Of a stretch of DNA of 64,000 nucleotides, positions 14,864-54,572 are shown in pieces. The DNA comes from Gammaproteobacteria bacterium 45_16_T64. Its GTDB lineage: Bacteria > Pseudomonadota > Gammaproteobacteria > Pseudomonadales > Ketobacteraceae. The notes under the pieces were generated by a model. The model did not search any database. It was given only the letters and a program-made list of their open reading frames with translations, and was not told the origin of the DNA. Location of the stretch: positions 45,024 to 109,023 of the forward strand of contig MABD01000002.1 of NCBI GenBank assembly GCA_002162955.1, read 5' to 3'. A program made the position numbers and the translations under genes. How positions within the stretch are numbered: the stretch's first letter is position 1; each line of letters begins with the position of its first letter.

Positions 14864-15301
14864 TCATTTTCCAACCACAATCGGAAACTTCAACTGAGTC
14901 CATTCATCCCAGCCTTTTCTATACCAAAAAACACTGCTAAATCCAGACTCAAGAGCAATAGACACTGCAATAGAAGAACGCTTACAATTAATCCCGTTAC
15001 AGTAAAAAACGACCGTAGTTCTCTTATTCTCAAGAACTTTATCTAGGGATACCGAGCTCGTATCAGTATCAGGTAGATTAATTGCCCCTTCAATATGCCC
15101 ATTCTCATAGTCGGTAATCTTTCGACTATCGATAACCACTAAATCAACATACCTTTCCGCCAAGTCCAATACCCCAGCAGCATCTACCGTTTCCGCTCCT
15201 GCAATAACTTCCGGGGCCAACCATTTATCTTCGGCTATAACATTCGATGACAATAGTAGCGCACAACAAAACAGGAGGATTTTCAGTAAGAGTCCTTGCA
15301 T
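14864..15301 (-). CDS. Exported rhodanese-domain protein
   Basis: 145 residues with a cleavable signal peptide (hydrophobic 3-22, cleavage likely after VIAE or nearby), so periplasmic. The rest is a single rhodanese domain: DLVVIDSRK and GHIEGAINLPD are the usual entry motifs, and the active-site loop is FYCNGINCKRSS. That loop is longer than the canonical six-residue loop and holds two cysteines, so sulfurtransferase activity is plausible but not assured. It lies immediately upstream of the hybrid kinase (10-base gap, same strand). A role in sensing or sulfur handling linked to that kinase is an inference. Confidence 0.85.
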   Translation of the reverse strand: MQGLLLKILLFCCALLLSSNVIAEDKWLAPEVIAGAETVDAAGVLDLAERYVDLVVIDSRKITDYENGHIEGAINLPDTDTSSVSLDKVLENKRTTVVFYCNGINCKRSSIAVSIALESGFSSVFWYRKGWDEWTQLKFPIVVGK

Positions 15302-15452
15302 TTCATACCACCCAATAAATCATTGCTATCTTTTGAGTATAGAAACTCACGCAAATAGTGGTATTTTTTTGATCTAAAATGGGCGCAGGAGCATAACGTG
15401 TACAGCCTACCTTCTAAGCTATTGAATTCATCACGATTTTTAAAACATATCG

Positions 15453-39074: not shown

Positions 39075-40262
39075 ATGACAATTACGTTCGAAGCCCAACA
39101 AGAACTCGCCCCAAATATTGAAGCCTCATTGAACAACGTACGGCACCCTCAATACGGTCGATTCTTAGAAGAATACGTACCGGGTCAAGTATTTGTTCAT
39201 CCACGAGGGTACACATTTACTCAAGCGCAGATAGACAATTTTTCTCGCACCTTTATGCAGTGCAATCCATTATATCTGGATTTGGAATATGCTAAATCCC
39301 ATGGGTTCTCCGGTATACCCGCGTCACCTCAAATGGTGTTTAACGTCATCCTATCGCTCGGCGTTCAAAACGATTCAGAAAAAGTCATCGCCAACCTAGG
39401 TTATTACGACGCACAGTTTCTTGCTCCGGTATATTCGGGCGATACGATCCGTGCCATGACCATGGTTACCGATCGCAAAGAGCGCGGCGAAGACAAGCCT
39501 GGCATTGCCACTATTCGTACACTGGGTGTTAATCAACATGACGAAGTGGTACTGCAATACGAGCGCAAACTCATGGTGGCTTATCGCGGTGATCGCCTAC
39601 CTACCACCCCTTTAGCCGAGGGTGAAACACCCACGTTCCCTTGGCAAGAAAGCGCCTCAGTTAATCTTCCTAGCGGTCTTGCAACAGCCCTACGCCATGT
39701 TCCTAAAAGCGTCACTGGGTGGAACACCTATGCAGAAGATTTCTCTGCGGGTGACATCATCGTTCACAACAATGGACGCACTATCACAGACGAGCACTTC
39801 AGCCTGACCTATCAAGTGGGCAACACTCACCCACTGCATTACGACCAGGTATTTAGCCAAAGCCTCAGCGGAAAAATGAGTGGCAATCCAATTGTTTATG
39901 GTGGATTGGTCTATGCTTGGCTCGAAGGCCTGGCTAGTCGAGACATTACCGAGAACACACTGTGGGAGCTTGGATTCACTGAAGGCTACCACACCCAACC
40001 TGCTATCGCTGGCGACACCGTTTCCGCAATTTCTCATGTGCTAAAAATTGAAGATGCGCCTGCAGAGCTCGCCGATGTTGCAAGCATCATCACCATCCAA
40101 TTTATCGGTGTCAAAAATATTACCGCTGCAGCAGCACTTGAAAAGCACGGAACAGACCTATTTATCAAAGAAAATAACAAAAAAGGTCTCGGCAAAGAAA
40201 AGATTACCGACAAAATATTCGAAATTGAACGCCGCCTTGTCATCAAGAAGCGTCAAGCTTAA
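39075..40262 (+). CDS. mch: Mesaconyl-C1-CoA hydratase (tandem MaoC domains)
   Basis: Hydrates mesaconyl-CoA to beta-methylmalyl-CoA. It is 395 residues with two hot-dog/MaoC domains: the first near 45-185 (NFSRTFMQCNPLYLD, HGFSGIPASPQMVF), the second near 225-370 (HNNGRTITDEHFSL, GNTHPLHYDQVF). The Rhodobacter and Methylobacterium enzyme is about 340-350 residues, so this one is slightly long. Position between Mcd and the mutase supports the assignment; a general enoyl-CoA hydratase is the alternative. Confidence 0.85.
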   Translation: MTITFEAQQELAPNIEASLNNVRHPQYGRFLEEYVPGQVFVHPRGYTFTQAQIDNFSRTFMQCNPLYLDLEYAKSHGFSGIPASPQMVFNVILSLGVQNDSEKVIANLGYYDAQFLAPVYSGDTIRAMTMVTDRKERGEDKPGIATIRTLGVNQHDEVVLQYERKLMVAYRGDRLPTTPLAEGETPTFPWQESASVNLPSGLATALRHVPKSVTGWNTYAEDFSAGDIIVHNNGRTITDEHFSLTYQVGNTHPLHYDQVFSQSLSGKMSGNPIVYGGLVYAWLEGLASRDITENTLWELGFTEGYHTQPAIAGDTVSAISHVLKIEDAPAELADVASIITIQFIGVKNITAAAALEKHGTDLFIKENNKKGLGKEKITDKIFEIERRLVIKKRQA

Positions 40263-40276
40263 TTAGGAATATACCC

Positions 40277-42292
40277 ATGACTGATACGCAAAAGCATCAA
40301 CTCACCGATAAAGATGGCAACGTTACCACTGATCGCCCGTGGATTTTTCGTACCTACGCCGGTCACACGAATGTACGTAAATCCAATGAGCTGTATCGCA
40401 ATAACTTAGCCAAAGGTCAGACCGGTTTGAGTATTGCTTTTGATCTCGCCACTCAATGTGGGTATAGCTCTGAAGAAGATATCGCAAAGCCAGAAATTGG
40501 TAAGGTTGGGGTTCCCATTAACACCCTTGATGATTTTGCGATTCTTTTCGATCAAATAGATATCAGTGAAGTAAACACATCAATGACCATTAACGGTACA
40601 TCGATGTGGCTGCTGTCTTTGTATGTGGCGCTTGCCGAAGAACGAGGCGTTCCTATTGAGGAGCTTCAAGGCACCACCCAAAATGACCTTATCAAAGAAT
40701 TTCTCGCGCGAGGAACTTACGTATTCCCACCCGAGGAATCTATCAAGTTAATCGTCGACATGTATGAGTTCTGTCTAACGAACGTTCCAAAGTGGAACCC
40801 TTCGAACGTATGCTCTTACCACTTGCAAGAAGCAGGCGCTACGCCCGTTAAAGAACTGGCATACTCTCTTGTCACCGCAATTACCGTACTTGATGCGATT
40901 AAAGAGCGCGATTGTTTCAGCGAAGAAGAATTCGAACGCTGTGTAGGGCGAGTATCTTTTTTTGTAAACGCTGGAATGCGCTTTATAGAAGAAATGTGCA
41001 AAATGCGCGCCTTCACCCAGCTATGGGATGAGATTTGCATTGAACGCTACAACGTCAAAAATCCAAAATTCAGACGCTTCCGTTATGGTATTCAAGTTAA
41101 CTCCCTTGGTCTCACCGAAGAGCAACCTGAAAATAACGCGTGGCGTATTCTGATTGAAACGTTAGGGGTTACCCTGAGTCGCGACGCACGCTGTAGAGCG
41201 CTGCAATTACCTGCATGGAATGAAGCCCTATCGCTACCTCGCCCTTGGGATCAGCAATGGTCTTTACGCTTACAGCAAATCCTTGCGTATGAAACTGACC
41301 TACTAGAATACCCTGATTTGTTTGATGGCTCCCCCGTCATCGAATCCAAAGTGAACGAACTCAAAGAACAGGCCAAAGAAGAAATAGACAAAATCCTTGA
41401 TGCTGGTGGTGGTGTTGAAGCGATTAAGAACGGTTATATGAAATCACAATTGGTCATCTCGCAAGCTGAGCGCATGAGCAAGATTAGCCTCGGTGAACAT
41501 ATCGTTGTCGGTAAGAATCGCTGGATGGAAGGAATCGATTCCCCACTTGTGACAGACAGTGACGGCGGCGTGTTTAAAGTTGATCCAGAGTCAGCAGCAG
41601 AAACGCTTAAGTCTCTAGCAGAAACAAAGGCCAACCGCGATGACGCAGAGGTGGAAAAATGCCTTAACACGTTACGTGAAACGGCCCAAAGTGGCGCCAA
41701 TTTGATGCAGGCTTCAATTGCCTGTGCCAAAGCACGCGTCACCACAGGTGAGTGGACTGGTACATTACGCGATGTCTTCGGAGAGTACCGCCCTCCCACC
41801 GGCGTTGAAGGCCAATCCCTTTCTATTGAAAACGAAACTCTGGAAACTGTTAGGAAAAAAGTCAGCACCTTTATGGAAAAAACCGGCCACCGTCCTCGCA
41901 TCGTAGTCGGCAAGCCCGGGCTGGACGGACACTCCAATGGCGCAGAGATGATATCTGTTGCTGCACGCCATGCAGGTTTCGATGTTATCTACTTCGGCAT
42001 ACGCCTTAGCGCAACAGACATAGTACAGTCAGCCATTGAAGAAGATGTTGATGTCATCGGTATCTCACTGCTATCAGGCTCACATAACGAGATTATCGAC
42101 CAGTTATTTGAAGAGCTAGAATCTGAGGGTGCAAAGAATGAAATCCCCGTCATCCTCGGCGGTATCATTCCCAAAAGTGATGCGCCTGCCCTCTTGGAAA
42201 AAGGGATTCGAGCAATATTCACTCCGAAAGACTACGATTTAATGGAAGTCATGAACAGAATCATGGATATTGTGTTAGAAGATAATGCATAA
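40277..42292 (+). CDS. meaA: Ethylmalonyl-CoA mutase (MeaA-type)
   Basis: Coenzyme-B12-dependent interconversion of (2R)-ethylmalonyl-CoA and methylsuccinyl-CoA. It is 671 residues in one chain: substrate barrel (about 20-500; WIFRTYAGHTNVRKSNELYR, AFDLATQCGY, TSMTINGTSMWLLSLY) and C-terminal cobalamin domain with GLDGHSNGAEMI (the DxHxxG motif) and GGIIPKSDAPALLEKG. The sequence resembles MeaA of Methylobacterium more than methylmalonyl-CoA mutase, which is about 710-750 residues. GGA precedes ATG 40277. It is followed by its G-protein chaperone gene. Confidence 0.9.
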   Translation: MTDTQKHQLTDKDGNVTTDRPWIFRTYAGHTNVRKSNELYRNNLAKGQTGLSIAFDLATQCGYSSEEDIAKPEIGKVGVPINTLDDFAILFDQIDISEVNTSMTINGTSMWLLSLYVALAEERGVPIEELQGTTQNDLIKEFLARGTYVFPPEESIKLIVDMYEFCLTNVPKWNPSNVCSYHLQEAGATPVKELAYSLVTAITVLDAIKERDCFSEEEFERCVGRVSFFVNAGMRFIEEMCKMRAFTQLWDEICIERYNVKNPKFRRFRYGIQVNSLGLTEEQPENNAWRILIETLGVTLSRDARCRALQLPAWNEALSLPRPWDQQWSLRLQQILAYETDLLEYPDLFDGSPVIESKVNELKEQAKEEIDKILDAGGGVEAIKNGYMKSQLVISQAERMSKISLGEHIVVGKNRWMEGIDSPLVTDSDGGVFKVDPESAAETLKSLAETKANRDDAEVEKCLNTLRETAQSGANLMQASIACAKARVTTGEWTGTLRDVFGEYRPPTGVEGQSLSIENETLETVRKKVSTFMEKTGHRPRIVVGKPGLDGHSNGAEMISVAARHAGFDVIYFGIRLSATDIVQSAIEEDVDVIGISLLSGSHNEIIDQLFEELESEGAKNEIPVILGGIIPKSDAPALLEKGIRAIFTPKDYDLMEVMNRIMDIVLEDNA

Positions 42293-42337
42293 CACAGATT
42301 ATTTCCCGACCATTAGAGAGTAGGAAGAACAAGAAGA

Positions 42338-43339
42338 GTGAAAGACATCTTAACTCACCCTTTAGAGCCCGATGTTTTACATCAGCTCACTCAAGCGGCA
42401 GCCTTAAAAAAGCTGCCACTTGCTAAGCTCATATCGCTTTTTGAAAATCGTAGTTCCGGCGCGGCTCAACAGCGCCACAACATCATCCGACACATCCTCG
42501 ATCATCCTGCCGATTTTACCGGCAAAGGTGCTGTCATCGGTTTTACCGGGACACCAGGGGCCGGCAAATCAAGTCTGATTGCAGAATTATGTAAAATCCT
42601 CACCGCTAACAACACACTGCGCGTTGCCGTGCTGGCCATTGACCCTTCAAGCCAACAATCCGGTGGCTCTATCCTAGGGGATCGAACCCGGATGCGCTCT
42701 GGAAACAAGAGCAAAAATCTTTTTTTTCGCTCCCAAGCCTCCAACCTAGAACTTGGTGGTGTTACCCACAACACATTTCAAGCAACGCGCTTGTTACGCC
42801 ACCTGTTTGATCTCATTATTATTGAAACAGTGGGCATAGGGCAAAGCGAAATAGACATCCAATATATGAGCGACCACACCTTTCTGTTAATGCAACCTCT
42901 TGCCGGTGATCAAATCCAGTTTATGAAGGCTGGAATCATGGAAATTCCCGACAGTTTTGTCGTTAACAAATGCGACGAAGAGCGTCTGGCTCGCACCAGC
43001 TACCATATGCTGAGAGCAAGCTTGAAGCAGTCCAAACTGATCGTTCTCAACGCCAAAGATGACTTTAAAAACGCTGCCAAAGATAATATTTTTCTCACAA
43101 GCGCGACCAAACAAAAAGGCACGCACGAACTTGCTGAATTCATCGAATCCCTACTTCCCACAAATAAAGCAGCAAGTAGAGACATTGATTGGTTCTACCT
43201 CGGAAAATCGATTGCGGATCAATACGGTAAGTTTGGCACATCAATCATGGACCAACATAAAGACGAAATCGCTTCCCGTACCACCTACGAAGAGAAGCTC
43301 GTCCTTACGTTAGCCGCCATTGTGCAACAGGTTAAATAA
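42338..43339 (+). CDS. meaB: MeaB-type GTPase, B12-mutase chaperone
   Basis: 333 residues from a GTG start. Walker A is GFTGTPGAGKSSLIAEL near residue 65, then AIDPSSQQSGGSILGDRTRM and the GTPase region IIIETVGIGQSEIDI. NKCDEE corresponds to the guanine-specificity motif (NKxD). MeaB/ArgK proteins load and protect coenzyme B12 in acyl-CoA mutases. It is the last gene of the ethylmalonyl-CoA operon and serves the mutase just upstream. Confidence 0.93.
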   Translation: MKDILTHPLEPDVLHQLTQAAALKKLPLAKLISLFENRSSGAAQQRHNIIRHILDHPADFTGKGAVIGFTGTPGAGKSSLIAELCKILTANNTLRVAVLAIDPSSQQSGGSILGDRTRMRSGNKSKNLFFRSQASNLELGGVTHNTFQATRLLRHLFDLIIIETVGIGQSEIDIQYMSDHTFLLMQPLAGDQIQFMKAGIMEIPDSFVVNKCDEERLARTSYHMLRASLKQSKLIVLNAKDDFKNAAKDNIFLTSATKQKGTHELAEFIESLLPTNKAASRDIDWFYLGKSIADQYGKFGTSIMDQHKDEIASRTTYEEKLVLTLAAIVQQVK

Positions 43340-43341
43340 CC

Positions 43342-43827
43342 TTAGAGCAGCTTACTATTAGCAGTCACTCGTTGAAGTGCTAACGCCTGCCGCACCTCTT
43401 TCGCACCACTGCTCCAGTCATAATCTAATTCACGCCAAAGCGGTTCCTCATAGTCCAACCCTATCGCGTCAAAGTAGTCTTTATTAGCCACGACAAATTG
43501 CGTTTTATAGGGCAGCACCACCCCGCCCAGCTTCGCTTTTACCTCAAGTGCCTCTTGGTGATCTCGACACCAAGAGTTCAGTAACACCGCACACCCTCTC
43601 GCATACCAAAAACCACCACAATCCAGTGCCAATGACCCATATTCACAAGAGAGTACCTGCCTAGCATGCTCCCAATCACGAAAACCATACTGTCGGGCAA
43701 TGAACAATTGACAATGTTTTAGTTGAAGTGGGCCGTTTGTGCTTAGCACAAGCGATGTAGACGGTACAAAACGCTGCTTGAGAAGCCGTTTGGCTTGAAT
43801 CTTGAGTTCTTCTACTGGTGTTAACAT
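43342..43827 (-). CDS. Hypothetical protein with N-terminal HCQ...YGFRDW helical motif
   Basis: 161 residues from ATG 43827 (AGGA eight bases upstream; an open extension to 43860 is less likely). The first 60 residues (LKIQAKRLLKQRF, LKHCQLFIARQYGFRDWEHA) resemble the short helical domain at the start of some glyoxalase-related and ankyrin-type proteins. The remainder (GFWYARGCAVLLNSWCRDHQ) is not recognised. It is convergent with meaB with two bases between stops. Function unknown. Confidence 0.6.
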   Translation of the reverse strand: MLTPVEELKIQAKRLLKQRFVPSTSLVLSTNGPLQLKHCQLFIARQYGFRDWEHARQVLSCEYGSLALDCGGFWYARGCAVLLNSWCRDHQEALEVKAKLGGVVLPYKTQFVVANKDYFDAIGLDYEEPLWRELDYDWSSGAKEVRQALALQRVTANSKLL

Positions 43828-44183
43828 GACAAATCCTAAATAGTTCTTTGTTTCCCGCATAACAAATATTCAGAATTTTAAGGCAAGCTACTTGGCTTAA
43901 TAGACAGGGTGAGATCCTCTTGGCGGGTAGGCGTCCCTAACACCTAATGGATCGCAGTATGCCAAAACCACTCTCCCCAGGCAATAGCTTATCGGCAGTT
44001 CCTCCGTTTAAGGGCAGCAATAAGGCTCATTTATACCTTTCACTAAGTGACTTATTCACGTGCCAAAATAAGCGTGCTCTGTAATAATTCTCTCACGGTT
44101 TAGGAAAACAGAATCACATACCGACCAGATACGAACTAGACACACATTACTCTTACATACAGACTACAAAAGGAAAGAACATC
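43828..44183. other. Intergenic region upstream of hcp
   Basis: About 356 bases with no convincing ORF, RNA gene or repeat. It must hold the hcp promoter; GGAAAG lies close before the hcp ATG as its ribosome-binding site. No sigma54-type promoter was recognised. Confidence 0.5.
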
Positions 44184-44666
44184 ATGGCTATTTACTTGGA
44201 ATTTGAAGGCATCGAAGGTAACGCAACGGCAACCGGTTACGAAAAGATGATAGATGTCTCAAGCTTCAACTGGGGTGTAGGACGTGCAATCACTCAAACA
44301 GCAGGCCGTATGGCAAACCGTGAAGCATCCCGCCCAAGCATCAGCGAAATCACTTTGACCAAAGCAACGGACAAATCAACTCCTCTGTTGATTCAAGAAT
44401 CTACTGTTGGAACTAAAGGCAAAAAAGTACTGATCCACTTCGTTACCACGGGTGGCGATCAGCTAGAAGAATTCCTCACTTATACATTAGAAGACACGCT
44501 CATTAGCAGCTTCTCAATTGGTGCATCAAGCGATGGCGAGCCGGGTGAAACTATCTCACTAAGCTTCTCTCAGTTTGAGGTAGCCTTCACCGAAGCAGGC
44601 GAAACTAACGCTCGTAGCGGTAAAGGTCGATTTGGCTACGATATCGCTCTTGCTAAGAAGTCATAA
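44184..44666 (+). CDS. hcp: Hcp-family type VI secretion tube protein (orphan)
   Basis: 160 residues, Hcp1 fold: AIYLEFEGIEGNATATGYEKMIDVSS at the start in family form, SEITLTKATDKSTPLLIQES in the middle, and the beta-strand SFSQFEVAFTEA near the end. Hcp forms hexameric rings that stack into the T6SS tube and can carry effectors. Here it stands alone: no tss, VgrG or effector gene lies nearby, so it is an orphan copy presumably serving a cluster elsewhere. A strong terminator follows. Confidence 0.9.
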   Translation: MAIYLEFEGIEGNATATGYEKMIDVSSFNWGVGRAITQTAGRMANREASRPSISEITLTKATDKSTPLLIQESTVGTKGKKVLIHFVTTGGDQLEEFLTYTLEDTLISSFSIGASSDGEPGETISLSFSQFEVAFTEAGETNARSGKGRFGYDIALAKKS

Positions 44667-44682
44667 GCGATCATACATCTCT

Positions 44683-44719
44683 AAAAAGGGCCATCAGAAT
44701 ATTCTGATGGCCCTTTTTT
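44683..44719 (+). terminator. Terminator after hcp
   Basis: Eighteen-base complementary arms (44683-44700 and 44701-44718, core AGGGCCATCAGAAT) with an A-run before and six T after. It is 16 bases after the hcp stop. Together with the isolated gene it indicates a monocistronic, highly expressed hcp. Confidence 0.9.
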
Positions 44720-44763
44720 ATGACAGCGCCCTCGATTAAGACGATACCAGCAGGCATGTTAAC

Positions 44764-45141
44764 TCACTCTAACGATTGGCACTTATATATTTTTCCTGGG
44801 GTACTTTTACCCGTCGACGCTTTTCCGGCCGAAACACCGCTAGCTCCAACAAACACATCCCCCACAGCCAACTGTTCTTTCTCTTTTATAACATGGGTAC
44901 CGCCCTTTCGAACTGCCCTTTTCTGAAACCAAGGTGTACATACATCACCCGAATTAACCCTAATTGTTTTGCATGTAATTTCCTCGACCAAAATACAAGT
45001 AGATTCATCAACAGAGTCTACGAAAACCACTTTCCACATCAACTCTTGCTCTTGCATATTCGTACAAGCAAACAAACTAGAAAATAATAGAAAGTATGCA
45101 CTGAATTTTATAGATCTACATTGGTTGAACATCGTTATCAA
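44764..45141 (-). CDS. Small lipoprotein of unknown function
   Basis: 125 residues. Hydrophobic N-terminus ending in the lipobox LFAC (about residue 26). The mature part has several cysteines (DESTCILVEEITCK, GDVCTPW) and a glycine/serine-rich tail. It reads as an envelope lipoprotein; no family recognised. The start may be M1 or M4. Convergent to hcp. Confidence 0.55.
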   Translation of the reverse strand: MITMFNQCRSIKFSAYFLLFSSLFACTNMQEQELMWKVVFVDSVDESTCILVEEITCKTIRVNSGDVCTPWFQKRAVRKGGTHVIKEKEQLAVGDVFVGASGVSAGKASTGKSTPGKIYKCQSLE

Positions 45142-45425
45142 ATCCTATAATTCACAAGGTAAGTTCATATCGCAAAACATTCTGCTTACATAATATTAGC
45201 AATAATTGCTAACACTGATCTCAACACTTTCATTGATGCCTATTCATTACTAATGTACACCCAAGAACTAACGTAATAGCTACGACTTATCGATTTAAAA
45301 TCAACACCTTAGGTAGCACCAAAGGTTTGTATAGCACCTACAAGGCGCACCATTACCCCTTTGATATCGACAAGCACTACTTTACACTGTCTACTCACTA
45401 CAATAATAAGAGGCTGTAGCAAGCA

Positions 45426-48400
45426 GTGGTTGATAAGAAACAGATAACTTTTGCCGTATTACTGATGACAGCGATCGCTGTTTTTTTCTGGACGCAATCT
45501 CGCTTTCCTGCGCTAGATACCAAAGCACAGATGGGGCAACGAACCAGCATCAGTGCCATCGCGTTTGATGTTATCTTACCTGTCGTAGAAAACGCTCCAT
45601 TTATAGAACGCGTAGGCAAGTCAGCAGTCAACTGGGGGTACACTAACTGGAAAGGCATGACATTCGGCCTGATCTTTGCTGCCGCTTTTCTTACGTTATT
45701 ACGACTACTTCCGACGCTACCACCTTCTCGCTTTCACTTTATAAACGCCTTGAAGGGTCTCGCGATTGGCGTCCCTTTGGGGGTTTGCGCTAATTGCTCC
45801 ACTCCCATCGCCCATGGCATGGTTCAGGCGGGTTCTCGTGTTGAAACAGCGCTTGCCACGTTGACTAGCTCCCCAACTCTCAATATTTTTGTGTTAACGA
45901 TGAGTTTCTCATTATTGCCCACTCATTTAGCCCTTATAAAATTATTTGGGGTACTGGTATTTGTTCTCTTGGTTCTGCCGTATCTGGTTAAGATGTCGAT
46001 TACACAATCCACCGACAACAACTCAAAAGCAGGTACCTTACAAAAGTCATTATCTGACAACGCTACAAACACATTAACTCTTAACAGCTTGCCTGCAGGA
46101 AGCTGCGAACTACCCACAGACAATTGGGGCTCAGCACTGCGAAGAGTAACGCAGAAATTTACAACTAATCTTAGGGTAATTGTTCAAGCCACTCTCCCCC
46201 TTATGGTGTTGGCGGGAATCCTCGGCGCGATCGCGATTGAAAGCGTACCCTTTAGCCTTTTTCAAAACGCAACTAACAGCGCCCTTGCTTTGCTTGGCAT
46301 TAGCGTTATTGGAGCCTTTCTACCGGTACCCATCGCATTCGATATCATTATTGTGACAACATTATTAGCCATTGGATTTCCGGTTGGGTTGAGCATGGCG
46401 CTACTATTTTCTCTTGGAATATTCAGTATCTATCCCGCTATGGTAATTGCTCGGCAAGTCTCCCCAAGACTTAGTGCTAACGTATTTGTAGTGGTAGTTA
46501 TTTTCTCATCCATCCTAGGTTTTTTTGCAGAAACACTCCACAAATCAATCATTAGCTCAACCAAGGCATCCATAAGTGACATTGTCGACAATAACGTCAA
46601 GATATCTCCACACACAATCATTACCGAGATTGCAGCTAAGGAATGCTTAGCACTAAGCCATTTACCCACACAAATCCGCTGCCAAAAAGATGCCCTACTC
46701 ATCATCGATGCTAGTGAACATTTAAGCACCACAGAACAACCAGCCCTCCCACTGAATTGCAACAATATTACCGAGCCAAATGAGCAGATGCAGTGCTATT
46801 CCTTACTCAGTATGCAGCATGCAATACATAGCAAAGATATTCAAAAATGTAATTACATCCAATTAGAGAATATAAAGCAGGACTGCTCAAAAACAATCGT
46901 CCTTAAAAAAATAGCGTCTATCTACGGGATTGAAACGGCTCGTATGAGCATCGAGTCTACCCCTCGACCAGATAACATCAGCCCCCTTCCTACCGCTGAC
47001 GAAGTCACCTCCACAGAGCTCCCCGCATGGCAGTTAATTCATCATCAAGAGGGGATATCCATTTTCAGCACCCCCCTTGCCAAACGCTCACAGCATGCTT
47101 CTGCGGCTAAACAGCTCCCTGTTTTTGCGAGCATAGAGGCCTCAACTATAGGCATTCGGCTACCGTCAGATTTCACTTTATCTGATTTCTACGAGCCCTT
47201 TTCCTATGGTAGAGGCGTAGCATCTGGAGACATCAACAATGATAACTACCCAGATTTGGTATTCGCCACAGCTTCTGGCCCCAGAATATTCCTAAATCTT
47301 GGCGGTAATTTCCAAGAAATCCACCTGCCACTTACCAAACGGAATCAACTCAATACATTCTTAGTGAGTTTTGTGGACATTAATAACGACGGATGGCTAG
47401 ACTTGTTTTTTACCACTTATGGTGGGAGGAATTTTTTAGTACAAAGCCAAAGTGACTTACTCACAAAAGGACCGACAATCACTTTACCCAACGTTGACGC
47501 AAACCTCACTCTGTCGGCAGGGTTTTCTGACAAAGACAACGACGGAGATCTCGATGTTTTCCTTGGCAATTGGACATCTGGTGCTGAGAACAGCTTTTCA
47601 ACTACACGCTCTCAAAACGCCTGGCTCATCAATGATGGTACCCCGTTTCGCCTACTTCCAGACAATGAAGTCAACGGTGAGACGTTATCTGTTTTATTTT
47701 CAGATTTCACTAGTGACAATATTTCTGATCTAGCCCTGGCCAACGACAACCAAGGTCCTGATCTCTATTTCACTGGCGACAGCTCTGGTAAATTTTCACG
47801 ACTCCCACCTAACGCTCACATCCCCGTTACGTCGCTGACAACCATGAGTATTGATACTGCCGATATCAATAACGACCTGTTGCTCGACATATTTACTACC
47901 GACATGTCATTTGGTAAGAGTGAAGTCGATTCATATTGCAGCAATATATCCACAGCAAATGAGCGCTCGATCTGTTTGAACAATCTTACCGGCTGGCATG
48001 CAATTAAGGAATTTAACCCCGAGCATTGCAAGACGTACAATACAAGTACCGCCCAACAGCAATGCATAATTGGATTCATCATAAGCCTGGCAAAAACATC
48101 CAAAGATTCTTCCATCTGCAACAAAATACCCCATGCCGAGACGGCAAAAAAACACCTTTGCTATGAGATTTCACAAAAACTTCAGGCGCCGACTTATTCT
48201 CTAAGCAATTACACACCCCAAGAACAAAGTAACAAGTTACTCTTGGCTCAAGCCAACGGCCAGTTTGTCGACGCCACACAAACCATGCAAGCAGACGCTA
48301 GCTTTTGGAGTTGGAACTCGAAAATCGCGGATCTCGACAACGACCAATGGCAAGATATATTTGTAGGCAATGGCTTTGGCTTTGGAGACACACAAAACGA

Positions 48401-48869
48401 AATACACAGCAATGTATTATATCAAAACCAATCTGGCAGGACGTTCATCAACGCTACTGAGCAGTTCGGCTTAACCCAGTTTCTTAACACCCCAAGCTAC
48501 ACCTATGCCGATATCGATCTGGACGGTGATATCGACATCATCGCAACCACCATAATGGGACAACCCCAGGTTTACCTGAACCACTCCGAACACAAAAGTA
48601 TTACATTTAGATTAATAGACCATACGAAAAACCGTTCCTGTATTGGATGTAAACTTATCATTACCTATGGAGACAATGAGAAACAACTACGAGAATTAAA
48701 GCTAAGCGGAGGTTTCCTTTCATTCGACGACCCTGTAATGTTTTTCGGTTTACAAAAACACACAGTCATTAAACACGTAAAAATCATCTGGAGCGATGGC
48801 ACTATTAGCTCAATCAACAAAGCGCTAACCGCCAGTAATCATTACAAAATAGAACGTTCCACCCTCTAA
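45426..48869 (+). CDS. Permease (ArsP/DUF318-like) fused to Cys-repeat, FG-GAP and ASPIC/UnbV domains
   Basis: 1147 residues from GTG 45426 (start uncertain; a later ATG at residue 14 is possible). Residues 1-375 are a multi-helix permease with the metal-type motif GVCANCSTPIAHG (Cys121, Cys124) and a second repeat half (LMVLAGILGAIAIE, GAFLPVPIAFDII), as in ArsP/SO_0444-type metal or metalloid exporters. About 405-490 holds three Cys-x11-Cys pairs. From about 595, FG-GAP/VCBS repeats (GDINNDNYPDL, DINNDGWLDL, DKDNDGDLDV, DIDLDGDIDI) bind calcium in related proteins. Another three Cys pairs interrupt the propeller near 835-920. The end matches ASPIC/UnbV. The fusion suggests metal export with an exported sensory, adhesive or scavenging head. 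Confidence 0.8.
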   Translation: MVDKKQITFAVLLMTAIAVFFWTQSRFPALDTKAQMGQRTSISAIAFDVILPVVENAPFIERVGKSAVNWGYTNWKGMTFGLIFAAAFLTLLRLLPTLPPSRFHFINALKGLAIGVPLGVCANCSTPIAHGMVQAGSRVETALATLTSSPTLNIFVLTMSFSLLPTHLALIKLFGVLVFVLLVLPYLVKMSITQSTDNNSKAGTLQKSLSDNATNTLTLNSLPAGSCELPTDNWGSALRRVTQKFTTNLRVIVQATLPLMVLAGILGAIAIESVPFSLFQNATNSALALLGISVIGAFLPVPIAFDIIIVTTLLAIGFPVGLSMALLFSLGIFSIYPAMVIARQVSPRLSANVFVVVVIFSSILGFFAETLHKSIISSTKASISDIVDNNVKISPHTIITEIAAKECLALSHLPTQIRCQKDALLIIDASEHLSTTEQPALPLNCNNITEPNEQMQCYSLLSMQHAIHSKDIQKCNYIQLENIKQDCSKTIVLKKIASIYGIETARMSIESTPRPDNISPLPTADEVTSTELPAWQLIHHQEGISIFSTPLAKRSQHASAAKQLPVFASIEASTIGIRLPSDFTLSDFYEPFSYGRGVASGDINNDNYPDLVFATASGPRIFLNLGGNFQEIHLPLTKRNQLNTFLVSFVDINNDGWLDLFFTTYGGRNFLVQSQSDLLTKGPTITLPNVDANLTLSAGFSDKDNDGDLDVFLGNWTSGAENSFSTTRSQNAWLINDGTPFRLLPDNEVNGETLSVLFSDFTSDNISDLALANDNQGPDLYFTGDSSGKFSRLPPNAHIPVTSLTTMSIDTADINNDLLLDIFTTDMSFGKSEVDSYCSNISTANERSICLNNLTGWHAIKEFNPEHCKTYNTSTAQQQCIIGFIISLAKTSKDSSICNKIPHAETAKKHLCYEISQKLQAPTYSLSNYTPQEQSNKLLLAQANGQFVDATQTMQADASFWSWNSKIADLDNDQWQDIFVGNGFGFGDTQNEIHSNVLYQNQSGRTFINATEQFGLTQFLNTPSYTYADIDLDGDIDIIATTIMGQPQVYLNHSEHKSITFRLIDHTKNRSCIGCKLIITYGDNEKQLRELKLSGGFLSFDDPVMFFGLQKHTVIKHVKIIWSDGTISSINKALTASNHYKIERSTL

Positions 48870-49117
48870 CAACCGTGGGCACTGAAGTAAAAGACTCCCC
48901 AAATCTAAGAGGTTCATCGCATTTCTAGATCTTGATCCCTCCCATTGACTAACATACAATGTCAAATCCACTGTCGAGCAAGGCAAGTAACGGAATGTTA
49001 TTGATCTCCCGCCACCGCAATTAGATGACAGTAAGGGACTGCCCCCTAGCAGGGCAACCCCCTGATAACAATATAAAATTAGTATTAGACAATCGCCCAT
49101 TATCCGCGTTTGCCTAA

Positions 49118-50452
49118 ATGAGAGATGCCTATATGTTTCCAGCGATTCGATCTGCCTTTTCATTTAGAAGTAACCTTCGCTCTTTGTTCTATCGTAATTC
49201 AAGCAATTACTCCGCTATCGACGGACTACGCGCTATATCCATTTTACTGGTCATCTTATTTCATACATTCAAAATCGTTGGTGCTGGCTCCGGCATCGAG
49301 ACGACGCAACAAATCATTGATGACACACCTTTTTTTCTAAACTGGATTTGGAATGGCGACAAGAGTGTTGATATTTTCTTTATTATTAGCGGCTTTTTGA
49401 TTGCAGGGCTGCTTTTCAAAGAATACAAAAAAACCGCCACCATAAAGCTAAAGCGTTTCTATGTTCGCCGCTTCTTTCGGCTAACCCCAGTTTACCTACT
49501 TGCCTTAGCCCTTTATGGCCTCTCTGGCGCACCAAACGCTGAGAACATCTGGGCCAACCTTCTTTATGTCAATAATTTCCTACCCCTAGAGGAACAGGCC
49601 TTTCAGTGGGGCTGGACGCTTGCAGTTGAAGAGCAATTCTATTTACTGTTCCCGTTGTTCCTCTTGACCGTATTCCTTCCCAGCAAAAAACCCATGCGCT
49701 GGCTCATTGCCTTGTTCTTATTGTCATTTGTCATTCGCCTGTGCTTTGTATACTTTGACAAACGTATATGGCACACCAGCATGAGCGACTTTTACTTTGA
49801 CATTGAGACCTTTAGATATATTTTCAGCGCAATGTATGACAATTTATACACCCGGTACGGTGCCTTTCTATGCGGTATAGGCGCCGCCTACATCCACCAC
49901 TATCATCACGACAAAGCCATCTCATTTTTTGCTAACACACGATTAAGTTTAGCCATTTCTGCCGCCAGCTTGGGGGTTATCAGCATAATATTGCTAATCC
50001 CTATTTTTGACCCGCAAGCGCAATTCAACCCGACATTTACCAGTATCTATCTAGCCGTGCATCGGAATATATTTAGTTTGTGCTTAGGCTGGGTAATTCT
50101 TAGCGCTATTTACTCCAAAGATATTATCGCCATAGCGATCAATAAGTTCTTGAGCATGCGCCTCTGGTTCCCAGTCGCCCAGCTAAGCTACTCTACATAT
50201 CTCGTACACTACGCTATAGTACAGCTAGTTCTGTACTCACTGATGGCCAACCTCAAATACTATCAAGTGGACATATCTGTCATCAAGATTTCGTGGTTAT
50301 TCGGCGGTTTCTTCATTGCATCACTGGTATCTCTTCTGGTTGCGGTTGTCGCCTATTTACTGATAGAAAAGCCCGCTCTGAATTTAAGAAATAGCTTTGA
50401 TAACAGAAAAACAAGCCAAGCGCTGCCTGAGAAGTACAGCCAAGCATCTTGA
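49118..50452 (+). CDS. Acyltransferase-3 family membrane protein
   Basis: 444 residues with about ten membrane helices. The N-terminal signature IDGLRAISILLVILFHTF carries the family's Arg and catalytic His. RRFFRLTPVYLLALAL and WTLAVEEQFYLLFPLFLL are further typical segments. These enzymes O-acylate cell-surface sugars, peptidoglycan or lipopolysaccharide. No glycan cluster surrounds it, so the acceptor is unknown. A weak hairpin (50479-50497) follows. Confidence 0.88.
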   Translation: MRDAYMFPAIRSAFSFRSNLRSLFYRNSSNYSAIDGLRAISILLVILFHTFKIVGAGSGIETTQQIIDDTPFFLNWIWNGDKSVDIFFIISGFLIAGLLFKEYKKTATIKLKRFYVRRFFRLTPVYLLALALYGLSGAPNAENIWANLLYVNNFLPLEEQAFQWGWTLAVEEQFYLLFPLFLLTVFLPSKKPMRWLIALFLLSFVIRLCFVYFDKRIWHTSMSDFYFDIETFRYIFSAMYDNLYTRYGAFLCGIGAAYIHHYHHDKAISFFANTRLSLAISAASLGVISIILLIPIFDPQAQFNPTFTSIYLAVHRNIFSLCLGWVILSAIYSKDIIAIAINKFLSMRLWFPVAQLSYSTYLVHYAIVQLVLYSLMANLKYYQVDISVIKISWLFGGFFIASLVSLLVAVVAYLLIEKPALNLRNSFDNRKTSQALPEKYSQAS

Positions 50453-50564
50453 TATAAGTAACTAGCTACGGCATAGATGCCCATCATCCAGATGGGCAAG
50501 CTGGAGAGCTTGAATATTGGCGTCTATCCTTAGATAACTCAAGATATCTAGGTAGTTCGCTCAC

Positions 50565-51350
50565 ATGAACCCTTACACGTTACGCACCCTATTCCTCTGC
50601 TCAGCACTACTTCCACCCCCAGCCCTCGCAGACACCCCCACATCGCTCTCCATCGGGTATGCAGAAGCATGCCCTCACATGTGTCCCTACGATGAAAACA
50701 AAGGTTTCACTACAGACATCGCCAAGGCAGTGTTAGAAATGCAGGGGTGGAACGTTCGCTTCGTGGCCCTACCCTGGGCCAGAGTCGTTGCCAACACCAA
50801 CACCGGACAGCTCAACGCCGCTATTTCTACTGGCAAAAATGAATCCCCACTATTGATCTATCCAACCGAGGAGCTGGCAACACAAGAAGATTGTTTTTAC
50901 GGGGCTGCGGGCGACATGTGGAAACCGGAAGGAGCACATTCCTTCAAAATACGTAAAACTATTGTGTTTAGTGGCTGGGTTCTGGAAGCACCTTATCGAG
51001 AAGCACTAGGGGATCAGCTCTATGACTCAATATTTGAGAAATTCTCTATCGACAAAGATTATCACGACCGCTCAGTAAATCTGGTCATCAGAAAACGCAT
51101 GCACGCTTTCTGGAGCGACTCCACTGTCTTTTCCTATTACCAGTCAAAAAAAACACTCGAACAGACAAACCAAATAAAACAGCTTGGCTGCGTGCACCAA
51201 CAAAACCTCTATATTGGGTTTAGCCCTGCACACAGTAAGCTAAGCAACAAACTCGCAGCAGACTTTGACCTTGGCATGAAGGCCATTCGTAAATCCGGCC
51301 AACTCACAGCCATCCTTAAAAAATACGGTCTATCAGATTGGCGTAAATAG
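50565..51350 (+). CDS. Periplasmic solute-binding-like protein (PBP/bacterial extracellular family 3)
   Basis: 261 residues with signal peptide cut after PALADTP or nearby (residue 22). A PBPb-like fold is suggested by SIGYAEACPHMCPYDENKGFTTD in segments, ALPWARVVANTNTGQLNAAI, and a C-terminal KAIRKSGQLTAILKKYGLSDW. No ABC permease or ATPase genes are nearby, so it may be a stand-alone sensor or adaptor. Cysteines in EACPHMC may form a disulfide. Terminator follows. Confidence 0.75.
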   Translation: MNPYTLRTLFLCSALLPPPALADTPTSLSIGYAEACPHMCPYDENKGFTTDIAKAVLEMQGWNVRFVALPWARVVANTNTGQLNAAISTGKNESPLLIYPTEELATQEDCFYGAAGDMWKPEGAHSFKIRKTIVFSGWVLEAPYREALGDQLYDSIFEKFSIDKDYHDRSVNLVIRKRMHAFWSDSTVFSYYQSKKTLEQTNQIKQLGCVHQQNLYIGFSPAHSKLSNKLAADFDLGMKAIRKSGQLTAILKKYGLSDWRK

Positions 51351-51401
51351 AGCAGCAGATACGTACCCAGGTTAGCTCACAAAGTTTTTGATCTATCAAA
51401 A

Positions 51402-51428
51402 AAAACGCCCCTCAATGAGGGGCGTTTT
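51402..51428. terminator. Bidirectional terminator
   Basis: AAAACGCCCCTC (51402-51413) and GAGGGGCGTTTT (51417-51428), loop AAT. It separates the solute-binding gene from the convergent Cys-rich lipoprotein gene. Confidence 0.88.
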
Positions 51429-51452
51429 CTATTCTAGACTAACTGCATCTAT

Positions 51453-54137
51453 TTAATCTACTGGCCAGCAGACCGGTCCGATACCGTTATAACCTTCGTC
51501 ACACTGCTCGTAACAAAGTAGCCCGTCCTTCTCCATTCCATCGAGACAAGAGTGAATTGGTGAACCTACACCTCGTCCATAAGATAGCGATTGGTTTGTC
51601 CAACATACAGGGCCGATACCGTGATAACCATCATTACACTCTGGGTAACATAGGCCTGCATCATTTTCTTTACCTGATCCACAATCCTTTGGAATGGTAC
51701 CAACACCACGACCGTATGATGCATCGATCAACCAACATACAGGTCCTACACCGTTGTATCCGCTGTCACAGTACTTGTAGCACAAGCCAGCATCATTTTC
51801 TTTGCCGCTTGGGCAAGCACCCGTCCAAATATTACTTGGGATAGTACCTACGCCTCGACCATAAGATAACGAACGCGTGCTCCAGCAAACCGGGCCAATA
51901 CCGTTATAACCGTCATTACATTCTGGATAACAAAGCCCTGCGTCATTCTCTTTACCTGATCCACAACTTGTTGGAATCGTACCAACACCACGACCATATG
52001 ATGCATCTTCCTTCCAACATACTGGGCCAACACCGTTATAGCCATCGTTACATGGGGTATAACAAAGACCAGCATCGTATTCTTGGCTAGAAGAACACGT
52101 TAGCGGTGTACCAACACCACGTCCGTAAGCAACTTTAGGTGGATCAACAATTTCATTGTCACACGCGTCACTTACTTTAGTTAGCGAACCTGCAACATTC
52201 AGGTGAGCGTTAGTGCCGCCCACTGCGGTGATGTTATCTGGAATCAGTGCCAAACAAGCGAATGAAGGTAGTTCGATATTCGCTATCGGCTTGGCAATTT
52301 CTTGCAAAACCTGACCGAAAGACGTTGAAATAAGATCGTTAGCAACCTCATTCACACCATTGGTAATCCAGCTACCGCCACCTATTCTAATGCCTGTAAC
52401 AATAACTTCAGGTACTGCCGGGAAGCTAATATCAAGCGTATTATCTTCAGCAACACCAATACCCAGAGCAACCTTAGCATTTACGCGAACACCTAGATCA
52501 CTCGTATATTCGGTTGAGCCATTTTTCTTCGACTCCGCCAACAGCTCTAAGCCATAAACAGATAGAGTAATAGACGCCGCACCAGATGCATCATCAATTT
52601 CTACTGTAGCTGGTGTTTGGTTATTAACAAGAAGACGGTTAACAATGGTTTCTCCACCGAGATTATCATCTCGAGGAATACCAAATTGTAAGTTAGTTCC
52701 AGCCATGTTCATCTGCGTCAATCCAACAGAATGTGCAGAAGCAAGTGTCTGGTTAATTACGTTGGTATTAATTGATACGGCAAAATCTGCTGCACCAAGG
52801 TCCGCTGCAGGAAGAGCATCTGAGGTATATAGGGTACCTGTTAGAGGCTGAGGGATATCCAAATCAGGATTGACTGGAATAACACTACCTGCCATAGACG
52901 CCGACAGCATCGCTTCTGTGGTACTAATGCTCGCTAGGTTAAGCGCCATCGCCATATCGTAATCTGAAATACCGTCGTTTATCCGAATCGTATAGCTTTC
53001 TTTAATAAGGCCAGCCAATAGATCAGGTATTGCTTTGTTTAATAAGCCTTCAATCGCATTTCCGATAACGCCATCAAACAAGTTCAAAATTCCAGTAGTA
53101 AGGCCAGACAATATTGCTTGGAATACCACTCCAACATCATCAATCACAATAGCGCCAACATTGAACGCTAGGTTAGACAATTCAACGGTTGGCATTCTAT
53201 CCTCTACACCCAACGCCACATCGCCTGATAGGTCGACAGGACCAACGTTAGCACCAATATTAATAACAGTTGGTGGTAAGAATCCGTTATGCATACGCAA
53301 TGTTAGTTGAATATGTACTGTATTAATGGTGCCATCGAAACCGATGTTATTACCATCGGCAAGGTCTAAACCGAAGCTCTTAGCTGACATGGTAATGTTA
53401 CGAACGAACCCATCTGCGCCGTAAGTTTCACCAAATAGCCCCTGCCAAGTTGCATCGTACAACATCGATCCTGCAACCAATGAGTTGAGATCCAAACCAT
53501 TAAGTGCGTTAACAATTTGGTCCATCGCAACATCTAGACCATTCTGAGTAACCTTTACAGTCAGTGAAGGATCGTAATCCAACCCTAAGCTTGCGTATTG
53601 AGTCGTACTTTCATGACCCAAAGTATCGGTAGCTACATAATCGTAAATATCCGCCTGAGCAACCTCAGCAGTGAAGGAGCCATCATCCGCAACCACCACT
53701 TCGGTTCCGTTAACGGTCAGTGATGTCACGCCCATTTCGTCATTTGCTAGCCCGTCGATAGTCGCAAGACCGTCGATGGTTGCCCCTAAGATGACAACTT
53801 CTGGACCTTCAGTATCATAGATAAACTTAACTTGAGGACCTGAAGGAGGGTCTACCTGGAAAGTGTTATAACCTTCGATGAAATATGCAGAAAAGTCTGC
53901 TCCATCCCCGATGGCTTCTGTAGCACCTAGCGTAAAGTGTGATTCAACATTAAATCCATTTAACGTCATAGAAGGCAACGCATCTTGTTGCTTGGTATAT
54001 GTCACTTTAAACGTCGCAGGAGGCGACGTATGCACAGAGTCTTTCACTGGTTCAGCGATTTTGTAATCACTTCCACAGGCCATAAGACCAAGGCACAGCA
54101 AGGCGATTACTGCACGATGAATGAGCTTTAGGGGCAT
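51453..54137 (-). CDS. Large lipoprotein with five C-terminal Cys-rich tandem repeats
   Basis: 894 residues from ATG 54137 (AAGGAACC upstream; the frame is open to 54260). Lipobox LMAC (Cys21). An Ig-like segment follows near 110-185 (DTEGPEVVILGA, VTSLTVNGTEV). The middle (about 190-660) is a long beta-rich region with amphipathic helices, such as VFQAILSGLTTGILNLFDG and AVSINTNVINQTLASAHSVG, and a pattern reminiscent of BPI/LBP-type (TULIP) lipid-binding proteins; this is a guess. Residues about 669-894 are five repeats of about 45 residues with four cysteines each. Outer-membrane or surface location is likely. Confidence 0.7.
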   Translation of the reverse strand: MPLKLIHRAVIALLCLGLMACGSDYKIAEPVKDSVHTSPPATFKVTYTKQQDALPSMTLNGFNVESHFTLGATEAIGDGADFSAYFIEGYNTFQVDPPSGPQVKFIYDTEGPEVVILGATIDGLATIDGLANDEMGVTSLTVNGTEVVVADDGSFTAEVAQADIYDYVATDTLGHESTTQYASLGLDYDPSLTVKVTQNGLDVAMDQIVNALNGLDLNSLVAGSMLYDATWQGLFGETYGADGFVRNITMSAKSFGLDLADGNNIGFDGTINTVHIQLTLRMHNGFLPPTVINIGANVGPVDLSGDVALGVEDRMPTVELSNLAFNVGAIVIDDVGVVFQAILSGLTTGILNLFDGVIGNAIEGLLNKAIPDLLAGLIKESYTIRINDGISDYDMAMALNLASISTTEAMLSASMAGSVIPVNPDLDIPQPLTGTLYTSDALPAADLGAADFAVSINTNVINQTLASAHSVGLTQMNMAGTNLQFGIPRDDNLGGETIVNRLLVNNQTPATVEIDDASGAASITLSVYGLELLAESKKNGSTEYTSDLGVRVNAKVALGIGVAEDNTLDISFPAVPEVIVTGIRIGGGSWITNGVNEVANDLISTSFGQVLQEIAKPIANIELPSFACLALIPDNITAVGGTNAHLNVAGSLTKVSDACDNEIVDPPKVAYGRGVGTPLTCSSSQEYDAGLCYTPCNDGYNGVGPVCWKEDASYGRGVGTIPTSCGSGKENDAGLCYPECNDGYNGIGPVCWSTRSLSYGRGVGTIPSNIWTGACPSGKENDAGLCYKYCDSGYNGVGPVCWLIDASYGRGVGTIPKDCGSGKENDAGLCYPECNDGYHGIGPVCWTNQSLSYGRGVGSPIHSCLDGMEKDGLLCYEQCDEGYNGIGPVCWPVD
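51456..52133 (-). repeat. Five tandem ~45-residue Cys-rich repeats within the lipoprotein gene
   Basis: Each unit begins SYGRGVGTIP (AYGRGVGTPL in the first), then one Cys, SGKENDAGLCY, a Cys, DGYNG and GPVCW. The linkers between units alternate (KEDA, STRSL, LIDA, TNQSL), showing that two-unit blocks were duplicated. The third unit carries a four-residue insertion before its first cysteine. Confidence 0.9.
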
Positions 54138-54572
54138 AGCAGGTTCCTTTATTTTTATTTTCAAGTAGGACTCCACGGTCATTATGGAGTCCCAGGAGGC
54201 TAGAAAATACCACAGGGCATCAATATAGACAATTTGTGGTACGGTCCTACCAAAAAGCACACTCAGTAACCAATCTACACATTTTATAGGGCTAAAAGTA
54301 CAATATTTCGCCCCAACTAATACAAATGGGTTATTTTTATATACTCATAAGTCATGAAATTGTGTGATTTTCCTCGAAATTAACCCATGGATAGCTACAT
54401 ACAAGTTGCTTTTCGCAACATGATTGCATAATTGATGCATATTAACGTTTGTAACCCGATACTCTCGAGCAACACCCATCGTCCACTTTTGGGTATAATC
54501 CCCACACTATCTATCAGATAAATTGACGCTTTTAATTTTGTTGCGTTTTGTAAACGCGAATTGATAGGGTGT
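54138..54572. other. Gene-free region between the Cys-rich lipoprotein and LysR genes
   Basis: 435 bases, A/T-rich, with no supported ORF. It must contain the promoter of the lipoprotein gene (minus strand). No terminator or notable repeat recognised downstream of the LysR gene. Confidence 0.5.

Follow-up and report, generated by a model that had tools for sequence, protein, structure and literature searches.

The window analysed here, a stretch of 64,000 nucleotides from Gammaproteobacteria bacterium 45_16_T64 (contig MABD01000002.1, positions 45,024 to 109,023), contains a gene that joins an ArsP_1-family permease to a CRTAC1-type FG-GAP/ASPIC propeller in a single chain. The reading that we favour, with a probability of roughly 0.42, is that of a putative propeller-tethered, elevator-type carrier which exports a small, probably thiophilic substrate (a soft metal or metalloid) towards the propeller. 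The permease would lie in the inner membrane and work as an elevator-type carrier, with a CxNC motif and Asp306 as its putative substrate site, and the propeller, predicted to bind calcium, would stand on the periplasmic side. In the weakest step of this scheme the propeller would serve as a docking platform that passes the substrate to an exported partner, or receives that partner, which may differ by lineage: clients of the type II secretion system (T2SS) in an alphaproteobacterial clade, and in Sphingomonadales and Bacteroidota a lasso peptide. The features of the gene are the following.

45426..48869, + strand: whole fused gene, 1147 amino acids, GTG start, open frame without internal stop
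45726..46523, + strand: ArsP_1 permease domain, residues 101-366 (Pfam PF03773)
45786..45797, + strand: Cys121-Ala-Asn123-Cys124, at the break separating helix 104-118 from helix 122-134, where the first predicted hairpin has its tip
46323..46343, + strand: Pro300-Val-Pro-Ile-Ala-Phe-Asp306, at the break separating helix 286-298 from helix 305-315, where the second predicted hairpin has its tip
46548..47105, + strand: helical linker spanning roughly residues 375-560, its Cys arranged in three putative pairs (407/419, 445/457, 475/487)
47112..48584, + strand: CRTAC1-type FG-GAP propeller, residues 563-1053
47937..48161, + strand: six-Cys helical insert within the propeller (C838, C850, C868, C880, C898, C912)
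48639..48650, + strand: CIGC motif, residues 1072-1075, where the ASPIC domain begins
48642..48821, + strand: UnbV_ASPIC domain, residues 1073-1132 (Pfam PF07593)

The single frame of 1147 residues that had been read from the letters alone (the original prediction) is present, with 1149 open codons and no stop inside. One TAG is included where a profile match starts 12 bases 5' of the GTG, upstream of the start codon, and the GTG fits the MxDKKQ start seen in the alignment of near homologues. The ArsP_1 profile matches at E 1.7e-9 (37.7 bits, cut-off 32.3). The whole membrane part covers about residues 1-372, all hydrophobic segments lying within 1-373 and none beyond. The FG-GAP and ASPIC/UnbV domains named by the original prediction are both over their Pfam cut-offs (FG-GAP 26.1 bits against 22.1; UnbV_ASPIC E 7.3e-12, 45.4 bits against 23.4), and FG-GAP_3 matches at E 4.3e-30 across six stretches; the absence of any such profile hit, which was to count against the prediction, is therefore not what was found. 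As small corrections to it, the propeller starts near residue 563 and not 590, and the ASPIC domain is confined to 1073-1132. The propeller has seven DxxxDxxxD-type loops, starting at residues 602, 651, 702, 760, 813, 969, and 1029. The original prediction did not name the paired cysteines of the linker and of the propeller insert.

A search of 5.77 billion proteins gave 120 listed homologues, the window protein included, of which 114 carry ArsP_1 and 113 carry ArsP_1, FG-GAP, and ASPIC together; when the search was started from a Bacteroidota member, the count was 117/120 among the matches listed, query included. The four best listed homologues after the window protein are 54-56% identical over the full length, and the one that is named is a hypothetical protein. 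A permease-only alignment scan with one genome per species found 233 relatives, and the best 80 of these 233 were analysed as loci (numbered with L below), which were found by two peptide patterns containing CxNC or Asp306 and for which longest-ORF gene models were used. The permease lies within a single frame of at least 800 amino acids in 72/80 loci (two of these run off the contig) and is a gene of its own in seven; L070 is cut by the contig end. The genome of the window holds a second fused copy of 1288 amino acids on another contig (L003 8099-11965), as well as one separate classical ArsP_1 permease in a 365-codon frame. The fusion is present in three of the four genomes of the same genus, the remaining one being 87% complete. 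The family is patchy (3/397 genomes of the phylum of the window at E<=1e-30, own genome included), with the nearest kin of the window protein in Gammaproteobacteria, and it extends over Pseudomonadota, Bacteroidota, Bdellovibrionota, Myxococcota, and Planctomycetota; the original prediction had taken the protein for a possible oddity. What emerges is a conserved fused transporter family in several phyla, for which the database labels are 'hypothetical', 'YraQ', or 'FG-GAP-like repeat-containing'. One Chitinophagales contig (L084) carries, beside its complete fusion, a cut second fusion copy (2-2359) and a separate FG-GAP-type protein (3070-5376). At L010 (610-2916) a 768-residue frame, about twice the usual permease length, has an ArsP_1-like stretch.

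Predicted substrate site and side of the membrane

The AlphaFold2 (AF2) model of the permease alone (pLDDT 88.8, pTM 0.88) has two broken hairpins, and its predicted fold may resemble that of the IT-type elevator transporters NaDC1/INDY, CNT, ArsB, TRAP QM, and AbgT. Foldseek with the permease alone returned no match at E<=0.001, and a sequence search of the PDB gave only five weak matches, the best at E 0.066. To assess conservation, we used a 73-row alignment, which was our choice among the 120 listed homologues, and the 82 aligned locus members. The C, N, and C of the CxNC motif are kept in 72/72 rows with letters there and in 82/82 locus members, split ones included; the locus count is partly by construction, since 76/80 loci carry the scan pattern that holds CxNC, and the motif is also found in all 38 loci with the other pattern. 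Residue 306 is Asp in 69/73 rows and Asn in four, and Asp in 78/82 locus members and Asn in four (L046, L050, L052, L107), the locus count again being partly by construction. A further alignment of 54 rows consists of those of the 82 that pass a motif rule ending in Asp306, so that its invariance there is no evidence and the two larger counts are used instead. ArsP_1 was matched by 54/54 scanned family permeases at E 0.001. A quick tree was built from 82 rows, 21 of which had been cut at residue 400 after the motif rule failed, and the four Asn306 members cluster in it.

Classical ArsP_1 permeases of related genomes carry CSC in repeat 1 in all 24 rows (22 distinct) and YxCA[TS]ASTP in repeat 2 in 20/24, one row being cut and three lacking the motif. 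At these two spots the fusion family has CxNC and PVPIAFD: the Cys of the second repeat is lost and Asp306 stands there. We infer a substrate site made up of CxNC and Asp306, each standing at one of the two predicted hairpin tips; a metalloid or a soft or borderline metal would fit such a pair. Characterised kin act on Cu and Zn (PMC3219624). Export of a thiophilic substrate would be the likeliest job, because the site would suit such metals and because of what these kin act on; by analogy with SO_0444 and ArsP, export is also to be expected rather than import. Both the site (C121, N123, C124, D306) and the topology proposed for the family can be put to the test.

Genomes with separate genes are informative as to the location of the propeller. 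At L071, L077, and L085 the propeller gene begins at the base directly after the end of the permease gene, and its product starts with a basic end followed by a hydrophobic stretch, as secreted proteins do, and has exactly six Cys spaced similarly to those of the propeller insert. L083 has the same split layout with a gap of 3 and a propeller partner cut by the contig end, so that the two genes adjoin in four split cases; at L064 and L068 a propeller gene whose product begins in a similar way is found upstream on the opposite strand, about 1.2 kb off. A point against this line is L063, where a separate permease has no propeller gene on its 11.6-kb locus. The split forms make up two groups nested among the fused ones in the quick tree, which suggests that they may have arisen by later fission.

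The number of Cys in the linker is even in 73/73 rows (0, 6, 8, 14, 16, or 20), and the six Cys of the insert are invariant in all 73. Exoplasmic Cys parity was also determined for the 74 fused members at loci (72 loci, L003, and the window), setting aside seven without the SIY anchor motif and L044, which is shorter than 900 amino acids; 63 of the 66 counted are even, the odd ones being L055, L059, and L096. The helices of the model may be read as seven membrane crossings and two hairpins, which would place the C-terminus outside if the N-terminus is inside. The signal-peptide-like starts of the split propellers, the Cys parity, and this topology predict that the propeller is exoplasmic, at the periplasmic, outer face of the inner membrane, and in this respect they speak for the exocytoplasmic propeller of the original prediction. 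A DsbD-like thiol relay through the CxxC of the ASPIC domain was considered and rejected: C1072 and C1075 are both present in 35/73 rows and both absent in 38/73.

Lasso-peptide and type II secretion neighbourhoods

The fusion of six Sphingomonadales loci, and likewise that of Owenweeksia (Bacteroidota), stands by genes for a cyclase-like AsnB, PqqD, an HprK-like protein, a sulfotransferase, and a PF05118 hydroxylase. Among the 80 loci, AsnB was found beside the fusion in 8, PqqD in 7, HprK-like genes in 7, sulfotransferases in 12, and the hydroxylase in 10. The PqqD of L097 is over the NCBIfam lasso cut-off (93.5 against 80), as are the B2 proteins of L097 and L072 (83.4 and 89.4 against 33). 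The cyclase of L097 is under its cut-off (414 against 525), as are the cyclase and PqqD of L054 (197.6 against 525; 67.7 against 80), and the HprK-like proteins are under both Pfam and NCBIfam cut-offs. When small ORFs were searched all against all, 15 clusters resulted, the largest of them a peptide that is conserved at five loci, each time between AsnB and PqqD. A lasso-like precursor rule, drawn up after these five peptides had been seen, gave 11 matches in 82 sources, namely the five, two more at L097 and L059, and four that look like chance; it found none for L054, L072, and L084. The seven lasso-type precursor ORFs are these.

L045 15837-15968, - strand: lasso-type precursor ORF
L049 15792-15947, - strand: lasso-type precursor ORF
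L051 15791-15922, - strand: lasso-type precursor ORF
L053 15990-16163, - strand: lasso-type precursor ORF
L058 18179-18322, - strand: lasso-type precursor ORF
L097 5581-5733, - strand: lasso-type precursor ORF
L059 5989-6156, - strand: lasso-type precursor ORF

Each has a W-containing, Pro-bearing leader motif and a putative core that starts with Gly and has Glu or Asp near position 8-9; all seven end in Ser, six are near an HprK-like gene, and those of L045 (RPVENAFYATS) and L097 (GPVENQFYNS) have a common tail across phyla. L097, with its precursor-like ORF and with PqqD and B2 over and the cyclase under cut-off, thus has most of what defines a lasso cluster. There the start of the hydroxylase gene overlaps the stop of the fusion by four bases; the same locus encodes a protein (14930-16081) with Sulfotransfer_4 and lasso B2 (Transglut_core3) domains in one chain.

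B2 was also searched for in 25 genomes that we picked and that are rich in lasso-linked lineages. One lasso B2 gene was found in each of 11, comprising all six Sphingomonadales and all five Bacteroidota, and none in the remaining 14, among them own genome. In 8 of the 11 the distance to the fusion is 0.1-13.5 kb, as worked out by hand from contig coordinates and, for four of these eight, also seen directly at the loci; for L096, L059, and L084 the gene lies elsewhere. The window locus is no lasso cluster, with no B2 in the genome and no precursor-like ORF by the rule within window 35001-59000. The PF05118 hydroxylase occurs in one to four copies in the ten genomes concerned, with one copy within 7.5 kb of the fusion in 10/80 loci; these include two metagenome-assembled genomes (MAGs) that yielded no B2, one of Planctomycetota (L095) and one gammaproteobacterial (L107). 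PF05118 has two matches in own genome, both outside the contigs that carry the window and the paralogue.

A second association is confined to one alphaproteobacterial clade, which comprises 30 loci from Rhodobacterales, Maricaulales, and others and in which markers were searched by phmmer within the available flanks with seeds from L094, L104, and L075. At least one T2SS gene was found in 20/30 loci, in seven of the 20 by prepilin peptidase alone, and GspG or GspD in 13/30. Sel1 proteins occur in 24/30, the small secreted protein c1 in 25/30, c2 in 17/30, and at least one marker in 27/30; c1 and c2 were found in none of the other 50 loci. At L094 and L104 Pfam confirms GspD, GspG, GspH, T2SSK, prepilin peptidase, and Sel1, with GspI and a GspJ-like pilin under cut-off. 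In six Maricaulaceae loci (L081, L087, L094, L101, L103, L110) a GspK-like ORF ends at most 72 bases from the start of the fusion or overlaps it. The c1 family, represented at L094 15723-16193 with relatives in the clade, had no Pfam match in the two members scanned and no NCBIfam match in the one scanned. A universal T2SS link was rejected, the markers being confined to this clade except for a GspH-like match in L043 that is one of several pilin-like genes in a row. The candidacy of c2 as a dedicated partner is weakened by the huge size of its family (7940/7999 scored candidates at E<=0.001), where names include 'Peptidase S74' and 'Hemagluttinin motif', and c2 had no match in own genome.

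These neighbours suggest that the outer part of the protein serves an exported partner which is specific to the lineage, and the two neighbourhoods are two direct routes to function. They also extend the range of lasso-type clusters to ones that include hydroxylase, sulfotransferase, and kinase-like genes, and of which the carrier may be an overlooked component.

Alternative readings and relation to known systems

The same neighbourhoods would fit a somewhat unlikely alternative, in which the propeller is the receptor or handler of an exported peptide or T2SS client, while the permease either confers immunity or transports something that accompanies the ligand, be it a cofactor, a fragment, or the metal of the peptide. 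The lasso-type cassette, precursor ORFs, and B2 genes by the fusion and the T2SS and c1 genes of the one clade all speak for it; against it, each association is restricted to its own lineages, own genome has neither lasso B2 nor a c2 match, and no IT-type carrier is known to transport peptides of 15-17 residues. A bolder and improbable reading sees here a class of transporters whose elevator carrier is covalently joined to a periplasmic calcium propeller acting as receptor for a heavily tailored exported ligand. In Sphingomonadales and Bacteroidota this ligand would be a hydroxylated, sulfated, or phosphorylated lasso peptide that works as a metallophore and whose metal the CxNC carrier would move; elsewhere it would be another exported binder from the T2SS or surface-protein repertoire. 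We likewise give little credence to a permease that transports nothing and is a mere anchor for a calcium propeller acting as adhesin or surface sensor. The loss of the second-repeat Cys and a propeller that is CRTAC1-like and, more distantly, integrin-like are in keeping with such a role, but a mere anchor would not require C121, N123, C124, and D306, the first three of which are kept throughout both alignments while residue 306 is Asp or Asn in 82/82 locus members, nor does it sit well with permease and propeller genes that stay adjacent when split.

We consider it very unlikely that the protein is simply a Cu/Zn efflux pump of the SO_0444 type whose outer domain is mere decoration. SO_0444 (NF033936) belongs to the same Pfam family (PF03773), shares the two-repeat layout and a Cys motif in repeat 1, and is the best NCBIfam match of the fusion, but a weak one at 32.5 bits against an equivalog cut-off of 300. 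The fusion differs from it in having CxNC and not CSC, Asp306 and not Cys in repeat 2, and a long, presumably exoplasmic linker and propeller; the genome, moreover, keeps its separate classical permease. In a census of 146 neighbour proteins (110-700 amino acids, two genes per side, loci outside the 30-locus clade), no metal-resistance family was found among the 25 families inspected of 139. A plain Cu/Zn exporter was rejected on the SO_0444 score and the site motifs, and the metal function as originally worded is not borne out by score or neighbours; of the ArsP/SO_0444-like permease proposed with it, the ArsP kinship stands at 37.7 bits and membership of the SO_0444 equivalog does not, the site being different. 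To the SaoE efflux transporter (NF040736) there is a weak profile similarity, which covers residues 109-372 and reaches 25 bits where the equivalog cut-off is 325. The chance that an assembly error or frameshift joined two genes, the other ground on which the original prediction was to fall, is next to nil: genuine split pairs do exist in some genomes, but the join is kept in 113/120 listed homologues, 72/80 loci, and three of four same-genus genomes, and occurs twice in own genome.

The outer part, with FG-GAP and UnbV_ASPIC over cut-off, has the fold of the CRTAC1 and FG-GAP-ASPIC proteins (PDB 9etn). It differs in being tethered to the membrane by the permease and in having both a Cys-rich linker and a helical insert with six Cys, and is not a soluble secreted protein; CRTAC1-like propellers, whose bacterial role is obscure, are here linked to a defined membrane partner. 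In enediyne biosynthetic clusters the membrane protein UnbU and the FG-GAP/ASPIC protein UnbV are conserved side by side, but as separate proteins and with a different kind of product; a search of the open-licence literature found no paper on them. The lasso cluster bsf of Bradymonas sediminis has a kinase, a nucleotidyltransferase, and, at one border, an FG-GAP repeat protein that its authors presume to be uninvolved (PMC10368454). In agreement with the original prediction, which knew of no described system of this form, no description of the conserved fusion, altered site, or neighbourhoods was found in searches of an open-licence library, which lacks most subscription papers. The domains are each already known; the conserved fusion, its site, and its neighbourhoods appear to be new.

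Genes near the window copy

Upstream of the window copy are genes for methylmalonyl-CoA mutase and MeaB, with counterparts beside the fusion in L034-L036, and downstream (51453-54260, - strand) is a 935-residue lipoprotein-like protein with a look-alike downstream of the fusion in the same loci, both compared by eye. The 935-residue protein ends in repeated Cys-rich SYGRGVG...C...C units. Between the fusion and these neighbours are small genes and a type VI secretion system (T6SS) gene.

44184-44666, + strand: T6SS Hcp gene (PF05638, E 7.6e-35)

The ORFs of window 40000-54000 showed no further gene of this system, and no wider search was made. A link with PEP-CTERM proteins was also considered: one such gene (L003 7217-7948) lies just upstream of the second fused copy of own genome, and another (L044 2937-3725) is likewise upstream of the fusion copy at its locus, but own genome has 11 PEP-CTERM matches, none of them on the contig of the window.

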